Shown one piece after another: positions 812 to 31,703 of a stretch of DNA of 33,011 nucleotides. Each line of letters starts with the position of its first letter. The first letter of the stretch is position 1. Source of the DNA: Patescibacteria group bacterium. Its GTDB lineage: Bacteria > Patescibacteriota > Doudnabacteria > UBA920. Both the position numbers and the translations under genes were made by a program. The stretch is from the NCBI GenBank assembly GCA_023484515.1, contig JAMDAY010000013.1:1-33011 (forward strand). The letters run 5' to 3'. The notes beneath the pieces are model-generated. The model worked only from the letters and a program-made list of their open reading frames with translations. It had not been told where the DNA came from and searched no databases.

Positions 812-879
812 GTCTTGTTATTAAAGCGAAGGCAAGGGCGTCCTTCCGGGATTAGCCTACTAAAGCCAGATTATTGGGA

Positions 880-973
880 GATGACGCACATCTGGGACAA
901 TCTTCCTTAAGTTTGGTTGATGATGATTATTATCCGGCAATTTAAAGACCGCTTATCCCAGATGTGAGTCATC
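880..973 (+). repeat. palindromic element, copy A (94 bp)
   Basis: GATGACGCACATCTGGGA...TCCCAGATGTGAGTCATC, same length as copies B and C, conserved core. Confidence 0.9.
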
Positions 974-1082
974 ACTGCCTCTAAAGCCTGTTTGTCCCCT
1001 AAAGGGTGCCTTCATTGCCATTTCAACTGCATATTAACCATAAATAATACGTATTTCTTTGTTTGCTCCTATAGTTGTCCTT

Positions 1083-1986: not shown

Positions 1987-2082
1987 CGAGGGCCGTCCTC
2001 TGGGATTACTTATTTTAAGATCGGTAGACGATAGTCATAAACTAGCAATCTAAAAACTGTTTATCCCAGAGGGCGGCCCCCG
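1987..2082 (+). repeat. palindromic element, copy D (96 bp, diverged arms)
   Basis: CGAGGGCCGTCCTCTGGGA...TCCCAGAGGGCGGCCCCCG; inner core colinear and equal in length to copies A-C. Confidence 0.75.
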
Positions 2083-5056: not shown

Positions 5057-5225
5057 ATATTTGTTATTAATAATTTTTATTATACACTTACTGACGATCG
5101 CCAATAGGTGGTATATTATTTTGGAATTTCCTTATTCAAGACTCTCCTGCACCGGGGACGTGCGTGCCGCTGAAAACTATACTACTATCCTGCGCGGCCG
5201 CGTTTTATCGTAGTAAGCAAAACCG

Positions 5226-5279
5226 GCTTAATCCACAACCTCAACCCGCATGCTACACGCGGTGCTGTCGATGATTCTC
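5226..5279 (-). pseudogene. degenerate duplicate of the rplK 3' end
   Basis: minus strand IIDSTACSMRVEVVD-stop vs rpl[16 protein letters not shown]-stop (10/15 identical). Confidence 0.65.
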
Positions 5280-5280
5280 C

Positions 5281-5323
5281 TTGATGACAGTCATCTGGGG
5301 CAGCCCCAGATGACTGTCATCAA
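5281..5323. repeat. perfect 43-bp palindrome, element E (coreless relative of A-D)
   Basis: TTGATGACAGTCATCTGGGGC-A-GCCCCAGATGACTGTCATCAA. Confidence 0.9.
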
Positions 5324-5338
5324 TTCGGGAAATCCCGC

Positions 5339-5761
5339 TTAATCAACGACTTCCACACCCATGCTCCGGCAGGTGCCGCGGATAATTTTTTCCGCAGCTT
5401 CCAAGCTGTTGGCGTTTAAGTCCGCCATTTTCTTTTCCGCAATTTCGCTAATTTGCTTGGAAGTAATTTTGCCCACTTTGTTAAGCAAGGGGTTGGCTGA
5501 CCCTTTCTGCAAACCTATTGCTTTCATGATCAAGTTGGAAGCCGGCGGGGTTTTTAGAATAAAGTTGAACGACCGGTCTTCGTAAATGGTCATTTCCACG
5601 GGGATGATCATGTCCCCGCCCGCGGTTTTGTCGTTGAATTCCTTGACGAACGCGGCAATATTGACGCCGTGGGGTCCAAGGGCCGTACCAACCGGCGGCG
5701 CCGGCGTGGCCTTGCCCGCCGGAAGCTGGAGCTTTAAAACTGTCTTGATTTTCTTTGCCAT
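5339..5761 (-). CDS. rplK: 50S ribosomal protein L11
   Basis: [43 protein letters not shown]... Confidence 0.98.
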
Positions 5762-13594: not shown

Positions 13595-13688
13595 GATGAC
13601 GCACATCTGGGATAAGCGGTCTTTAGATTACCGGATAATAATCACCATCAACCAAACTTAAGCAAGATTGTCCCAGATGTGCGTCATC
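13595..13688 (-). repeat. palindromic element, copy B (94 bp, inverted relative to A and C)
   Basis: reverse complement GATGACGCACATCTGGGACAATCTTGCTTAAGTTTGGTTGATGG...TCCCAGATGTGCGTCATC. Confidence 0.9.
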
Positions 13689-20194: not shown

Positions 20195-20378
20195 AACAAA
20201 TTTTTACAGATTGATTATACCATTTTTAAAGTCTTGTATCAAAAATGCGGCTTTACGGAATATTGGCCGGCCTTTGGCTGGAATAAACTAATTCGGGAGA
20301 TGGCTGATCCCTTTCGGCAGTGAAGACGGCCTTTAAGGGGTTACCATGCTAAAGTAAGGCTGGTGATTAACATTGGGT

Positions 20379-20472
20379 GATGACGCACATCTGGGACAAT
20401 CTTCCTTAAGTTTGGTTGATGATGATTGTTATCCGGCAATCTAAAAACCGCTTATCCCAGATGTGCGTCATC
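20379..20472 (+). repeat. palindromic element, copy C (94 bp, perfect 18-bp terminal stem)
   Basis: GATGACGCACATCTGGGA...TCCCAGATGTGCGTCATC. Confidence 0.92.
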
Positions 20473-20551
20473 ACTGCCTCTATCCCGGAAGGGTGTCTTC
20501 ATCCTTTATCCGTACTAATCCGTATTCCGTAAAGACAGCAAGGCTGTTATT

Positions 20552-30578: not shown

Positions 30579-30692
30579 ATTAACTTGTTTTCAGTATTAT
30601 TTTACCACAAACATTTATTAACGCCAAATAGACCCGCGGGAATTCTAACCTGAAGCGCAACCGCCGCTAACCACACGTCCCCCACAAAGCCT

Positions 30693-30730
30693 TTCCTTCT
30701 TAAAATCACGGCCGTGATTTTAAGAAGGAA
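30693..30730. repeat. perfect 38-bp palindrome abutting the PaaX-like gene stop
   Basis: TTCCTTCTTAAAATCACGG|CCGTGATTTTAAGAAGGAA. Confidence 0.9.
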
Positions 30731-30731
30731 T

Positions 30732-31259
30732 TTATTTCAAGCCAAAATGTTTTTTCAAATTTTGATCGTCATTAATTTCCTCAACCTTTAATAGGCGGAT
30801 ATAATCAACCAACCCCACAGTTTTTATATAAGTCACCGCTTCCCGATTTAAGGGGTAAGGACTTACAAAAACGCTGGCCTGCAATTTTGCAAAATTATTT
30901 CTTTTTAACAAACCACGTAATAAGTCACGTTTTTCTCTGGCTTTTTCTGGGATATCAAATATGAGCAGTCTCCATTTACCATCCCATTTGTCAATTTTTT
31001 TTACTCCTGCCTTCTGAATAAGCAACTCTAATTCACCTTTGGATGTCAATTTAATAAATTTCTCGTCACGTTTCCTTATCATTTTTATAAATCCCTGCCT
31101 TTTCAATGACGATACTGTGTTTTGAAATTTTTTTCTGGAACCATATAATTGTTCATAACGCCAGCTGGCCGAATATTCCAAAGGCCAACGAAACAGTCCG
31201 GTTGCCTCGCCGACCGCTTTTAAAAATTCGCTTGATAATGTTCCGTACTTTCTTGACAT
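30732..31259 (-). CDS. PaaX-like regulator (winged helix plus Cas2-like ferredoxin-fold C-terminus)
   Basis: WRYEQLYGSRKKFQNTVSSLKRQGFIKMI...KWDGKWRLLIFDIPEKAREKRDLLRGLLKRNNFAKLQASVFVSPYP. Confidence 0.8.
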   Translation of the reverse strand: MSRKYGTLSSEFLKAVGEATGLFRWPLEYSASWRYEQLYGSRKKFQNTVSSLKRQGFIKMIRKRDEKFIKLTSKGELELLIQKAGVKKIDKWDGKWRLLIFDIPEKAREKRDLLRGLLKRNNFAKLQASVFVSPYPLNREAVTYIKTVGLVDYIRLLKVEEINDDQNLKKHFGLK

Positions 31260-31385
31260 ATAAACTAAAAACTTGACCTGCTATTAAGGCCCGCATATTA
31301 TCTTGAATAATTTTTGTTTTCAGTAAGCCCAAATTTATTCAACTGATTTTGCGGAGATCGATAGTAAAAATTATTTTCCTTCGTA

Positions 31386-31403
31386 AAATCACGGCCGTGA
31401 TTT
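31386..31403. repeat. 18-bp palindrome AAATCACGGCCGTGATTT upstream of the PaaX-like gene
   Basis: same core as 30693-30730. Confidence 0.8.
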
Positions 31404-31703
31404 ATTTAAGGATATCAAAATTCCATTTTCTAGACAACAAATAATAGGAATGCTGGACAGATTTGCTAAATGTCAACGCAAACAACAGTTTATGCCTTTA
31501 CGCTTCCCGTCTATCCGCATAAATTTGCTAATCTTATAAAATATTGCCTTGCTATATTTCCAGACCATTTCCAAATATTTCATCCTGCATTTTATTTTAC
31601 CCTAAAAAATGCTATAATTTAGGCATAACAATTAAAATAGCCTTAAAAAACCGTTGAGTTTTCCTTTAACGGACTTAGCGATCTTAAGGGATAATCAAAA
31701 TAT

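Follow-up and report, generated by a model that had tools for sequence, protein, structure and literature searches.

REPIN and RAYT systems are best known from Proteobacteria, and in known REPINs it is the REP that is conserved and the spacer that varies. REPINs consist of inverted REP pairs that form long hairpins, in which compensatory changes are common (PMC3116915). For TnpAREP subclass 2.4, REPs with a 'double foot' and REPs lying in frame inside the transposase gene have been described (PMC6006769), while TIRYTs have been described as RAYT-like genes with terminal inverted repeats, some of them self-complementary and some forming moderately abundant families (PMC3733652). In the literature searched, which most subscription papers fell outside, no description of REPIN/RAYT systems in Patescibacteria/CPR was found. 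Here we describe a family of 94-bp palindromes from a Ca. Doudnabacteria genome, which we interpret, with a probability of about 75%, as REPIN-like non-autonomous mobile elements moved as ssDNA by a RAYT-like HUH/Y1 transposase.

The window analyzed, 33,011 nucleotides long, corresponds to the entire contig C19 of a Ca. Doudnabacteria genome of 1.30 Mb, 97.8% complete. Its MreB shares 86% identity with that of Ca. Doudnabacteria genomes, which places the genome in CPR/Patescibacteria. Three copies in it belong to the major subfamily: A (880..973, forward strand), B (13595..13688, reverse strand, in the mreB/mreC spacer) and C (20379..20472, forward strand). The three are about 95% alike and, as proposed in the earlier note, all are 94 bp long and bounded by an 18-bp terminal stem. 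This stem is perfect in B and C and pairs at 17 of 18 positions in A, where the arms (GATGACGCACAT plus the foot CTGGGA) carry one mismatch. Older host copies were recognized around copy A (834..1013, forward strand, arms AAGGGCGTCCTTCCGGG and the reverse complement of GAAGGCACCCTTTAGGG) and around copy C (20322..20500, forward strand, arms GAAGACGGCCTTTAAGG and the reverse complement of GAAGACACCCTTCCGGG). Copy D (forward strand) is a member of the GAGGGC subfamily with arms GAGGGCCGTCCT and the foot CTGGGA; the gapless alignment of its core to that of C was reproduced (71%), while its bounds, previously placed at 1987-2082, are better drawn at 1988..2081, and its stem pairs at 17/18 positions with one G·T counted. 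The element E (5281..5323, no strand assigned) has the same design without the core and had been correctly recognized as arms only, with two arms set mirror to mirror (GATGACAGTCATCTGGGG-CAG-CCCCAGATGACTGTCATC).

The layout of the element is arm-foot-core-foot-arm, with a 13-nt arm (GANGNNNNNCNTC), a foot YGGGA and a core of about 58 nt, followed by the mirror image, and the foot reads 5'-TCCCR-hairpin-3' on both strands. Among 39 aligned copies there are 18 distinct left-arm types, and the 18-bp pairing of the arms is kept in nearly all of them. Each 13-nt arm is also palindromic in itself, a detail absent from the earlier note: positions 1-4 pair with positions 13-10 in about 37/39 copies, and this inner pairing covaries, position 3/11 being T-A, A-T or G-C. 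Since the arms are both self-palindromic and mirrored, a single copy has two possible folds, one long hairpin or a pair of small hairpins that each bear a foot. Within the core, an inner helix of CTTAAGATT with AATCTAAAG (80% of cells paired) fits better than the two small hairpins in a three-way junction that had been suggested before; in that arrangement 67% of cells pair, no better than a slid control, with a 3-column slide scoring equally (0.269 vs 0.243).

A DNA search of the same genome recovered about 20 near-identical copies together with a further set with other stems. The covariance-model search of this and related genomes that the earlier note had recommended was carried out with a model (R1) built from the 39 aligned copies (alignment A1), and it matched 67 distinct places in the genome at E <= 0.001, of which the weakest are partial or doubtful, giving a safe count of at least about 60. 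A search for the pattern CTGGGA-N45-75-TCCCAG gave 29 places, of which 28 belong to this palindrome family; the reversed control gave 0. Folding z-scores of the copies range from about -4.9 to -9, indicating a long ssDNA hairpin beyond chance. The family is near-absent from relatives, with weak matches to the covariance model in only 2/99: a 90-nt cousin with the arm GATGGGCACCATC in G021 and a core-less double arm in G018. Core-less double arms like E are also found in relatives G001, G003 and G018. An exact 25-mer of the element had no match in viral contigs.

These palindromes resemble REPINs and REP doublets (BIMEs), the RAYT (TnpAREP)-linked elements found for example in Pseudomonas fluorescens SBW25, in having an inverted palindromic pair, a spacer of tens of bases and a long hairpin. 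As in REPINs (PMC3116915), compensatory changes occur, the copies are extragenic and numerous, and there are RAYT-like genes with related flanking repeats. In contrast to REPINs, they carry a TCCCR foot and not GT[AG]G, have 13-nt arms and reside in the reduced genome of a Ca. Doudnabacteria host, and it is their arms that vary among copies, around a common core. No canonical GT[AG]G foot (GTAG/GTGG) was seen 5' of the hairpin when the alignment was inspected, TCCCR being present instead, and we therefore refer to the elements as REPIN-like and do not file them as canonical REPINs. The double-foot gene-end hairpins (e.g., TCCCCAGAGGCCGGCCTCTGGGGA) and the in-frame REP inside the gene are likenesses to the REPtrons of TnpAREP subclass 2.4, which differ from the genes here in their GT[AG]G, in having the in-gene repeat between HuH and Y and not before the HuH motif, and in that the family score here falls below the curated cut-off. 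By description (PMC3733652), the RAYT-like genes with flanking self-complementary repeats are also comparable to TIRYT/TIRtrons, for which a shared core like the one observed here is not mentioned in the accessible part of the source.

Three Y1_Tnp genes were identified in the genome. Two of the encoded proteins (C27:36749 and C27:49493) are 58% identical and have the HuH motif HFH and a catalytic Tyr plus N in YIHNNPKT; the best NCBIfam match of both is the REP-associated tyrosine transposase NF047646, at 36-59 bits, which does not reach the curated cut-off of 80. Searching the PDB by sequence for the RAYT-like protein gave no meaningful match. The RAYT-like gene C27:49493 is flanked on both sides by hairpins of the CCCTTGAAGGGTCTCTTCAAGGG type and contains a further one in its reading frame. 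Apart from this locus, the genome has the 16-mer CTTGAAGGGTCTCTTC of its hairpin only in a single isolated hairpin and in the arms of the elements C3:9393 and C14:47836. For the arm GAAGGGTCTCTTC, a matching RAYT-like gene flanked by the same repeat is present in the same genome, and in the homologue from relative G003 (C17:85884) both gene ends and the gene interior carry GAGGGCCGACCTCTGGG, nearly identical to the copy D arm GAGGGCCGTCCTCTGGG. A RAYT flanked by the arm of copies A, B and C (GATGACGCACATC) was not found in the 97.8%-complete genome, so that mobilization of these copies in trans, by a resident or since-lost RAYT, is something we only infer. All ten RAYT-like homologues, taken from the gene family (alignment A2), have a hairpin of 9 bp or more at one or both ends, compared with 13/79 control ORFs (both ends, 1/79), and several of the hairpins flanking the homologues are double arms like E. 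Through these hairpin-flanked genes, the palindromes are tied in their design to RAYT-like genes. The in-frame REP-like hairpins at C27:49393 and G003 C17 lie in two homologous RAYT-like genes, where both occupy the variable loop before the HuH motif (local positions about 1399-1422 in the C27 stretch and 1793-1813 in the G003 C17 stretch).

The copies are predominantly intergenic (60/67), compared with the roughly 20% expected from random placements, about 80% of which fall in ORFs. The flanking genes are in the same orientation for 36 copies, convergent for 10 and divergent for 10 (background 125/26/28), with no clear enrichment at convergent gene pairs and no terminator-like orientation bias. 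Major-subfamily copies lie in differing surroundings, many of them with the ends of other repeats (TTGGGT and ACTGCC-like) on the two sides, and a recognizable older copy encloses 6 of the 21, copies A and C among them, as opposed to 0.6% of random positions. One composite of this kind, 230 bp long, recurs on C10 and on C11 at loci that are unrelated, the similarity ending at the outer arms. Copy B is absent from the mreB-mreC spacer of ten related loci, which are too distant to provide a base-exact empty site. Judged from the sequence, the palindromes are real, widespread in the genome and mobile in origin. The earlier note had offered a pair of readings; that of a ssDNA recombination or transposition substrate is favored by the dispersal, the nesting, the composite and the RAYT-like genes with the same hairpin type, whereas that of a structured RNA is not. 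Its concern that all copies might be degenerating duplicates of a known IS end came close in kind, the arms being REP-like repeats of the type that flanks Y1 (IS200/IS605-related) transposase genes. A second palindrome, CCACAACACGTGTTGTGG, within GAACGCC...GGCGTTC, was noted nine times in the same genome (e.g., C10:34158, C13:33119, C16:16547, C20:10542 and C27:24086); a major-subfamily copy adjoins at least five of the nine, and this palindrome is probably a further repeat carried along with the composites.

Pairing in the family is kept as the sequence drifts, as had been proposed from the copies in the window, with compensatory changes found genome-wide. Double changes occur at 11/18 stem pairs, and the covariation score was reached by 0/500 shuffles, contrary to the possibility raised earlier that no significant covariation would be found. 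Stem cells are paired in 97.7% of cases, and double-changed cells number 118 over both helices. Selection for RNA pairing is expected to leave more G·U than A·C among one-sided changes on the transcribed strand. Stem mismatches were G·T in 48 cases and A·C in 45 (67 copies), and in the aligned set the corresponding counts were 6 vs 7 in the stem and 13 vs 19 in the inner helix; as mismatch cells are non-independent, this balance is an indication and not proof. The lack of a preference for G·T over A·C means that RNA folding is not the visible constraint, and the balance fits mirroring of the arms at the DNA level. Inverted-repeat arms are known to be homogenized by template switching (PMC8604942), which may also act on the arms of these palindromes. 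Covariation by itself is thus no evidence of RNA, and the ratio of G·T to A·C here points to correction at the DNA level.

The significant covariation and the very stable predicted folds would also suit a structured RNA, either a small RNA or an element within an mRNA, with selection for RNA pairing maintaining the helix; a structured RNA was one of the readings in the earlier note. We regard this as very improbable, given that G·U does not exceed A·C in the stem or in the inner helix, that position and orientation relative to genes are inconsistent, and that the family is nearly absent from relatives and includes nested copies; in addition, Rfam gave no match in the window, and only tRNAs at four other loci. 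Even less credible are intrinsic transcription terminators common to gene ends, despite the strong intergenic hairpins and the position of E just after rplK: convergent pairs are not clearly enriched, ten copies lie between divergent genes, and none of the terminator-like matches at 700-2200 falls on copy A or D. A classical DDE-transposase MITE, with terminal inverted repeats and double-strand cut-and-paste insertion, would account for the many short inverted-repeat copies and their sharp boundaries, yet it is improbable, since border direct repeats of at least 3 nt that could represent a target-site duplication were found in 0/67 copies, palindromic arms are unusual for DDE terminal repeats and Y1 transposase genes are flanked by arms of the same type.

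Another alternative, which we consider unlikely though less so than the preceding three, is that the core is the mobile unit and inserts into the tip of existing core-less REP-like palindromes such as E, the arms belonging to the target. The occurrence of 18 arm types against shared cores is consistent with such insertion, as are the core-less palindromes in the same genome and in relatives and the copy C14:43764, whose core is up to 90% like that of the major subfamily while each 12-nt arm shows four mirrored differences. Against it, the arm sites listed include about 20 pairs of the major arm GATGACGCACAT with a core but none without one; in the other subfamilies, similarity of the arms goes weakly with similarity of the cores (Mantel r 0.19, p 0.009); and copies of the major subfamily that share arms and core differ in their outer surroundings.

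In the REPIN-like reading that we prefer, the unit would consist of two inverted REP-like arms around the core of about 58 nt. During replication, the single strand would fold into a long hairpin whose ends present two small hairpin-plus-foot signals, and a RAYT-like HUH/Y1 transposase, the product of a gene at another site in the genome, would recognize these signals and cut and join the single strand. The unit would thereby be pasted into intergenic DNA, at times into older copies, without target duplication, and hairpin-templated copying would correct one arm from the other, leaving the arms as mirror images. We infer RAYT mobilization, the ssDNA intermediate and the hairpin-templated correction from the features described above.

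Copies outside the major subfamily have a core identity of 58%, compared with 39% for shuffled cores, and are only 49% alike at variable arm positions. Arms and core might, tentatively, be separate evolving modules, with a shared core that repeatedly gains a new and perfectly mirrored REP-like arm pair, by hairpin-templated copying or by homing of the core into REP palindromes; one family could in this way switch RAYT specificities. Stepwise mirrored drift and wholesale arm replacement fit the present data alike. With at least about 60 copies, nesting and mirrored arm sets on a shared core, this reduced genome of 1.3 Mb represents a natural experiment in the change of RAYT-end specificity and in arm matching.

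Several neighboring features of the window were also recorded. E has the rplK stop codon on one side and, on the other, a diverged second copy of the 3' end of rplK (...SMRVEVVD*; 5218-5276 vs 5330-5387), with a local alignment score of 25 (shuffle maximum 18.5); this is a gene-end duplication beside a hairpin. A gene with a PaaX_M (Cas2-like) domain (30732-31259, reverse strand) lies between near-identical palindromes (TTTCCTTCNTAAAATCACGGCCGTGATTT...) at 30692-30729 and 31375-31412, the 18-mer core of which has one further occurrence in the genome (C32:16418); these palindromes may be an operator pair or mobile ends. Finally, the segment 1278-1435 combines an exact TTGACA-16-TATAAT promoter match with an ORF of 25 codons, read by eye as MNRIISSQIISIITPAPLGTGRVLV, and with a strong terminator hairpin; judged by its sequence, it resembles an independent unit for a leader peptide or a small transcript.
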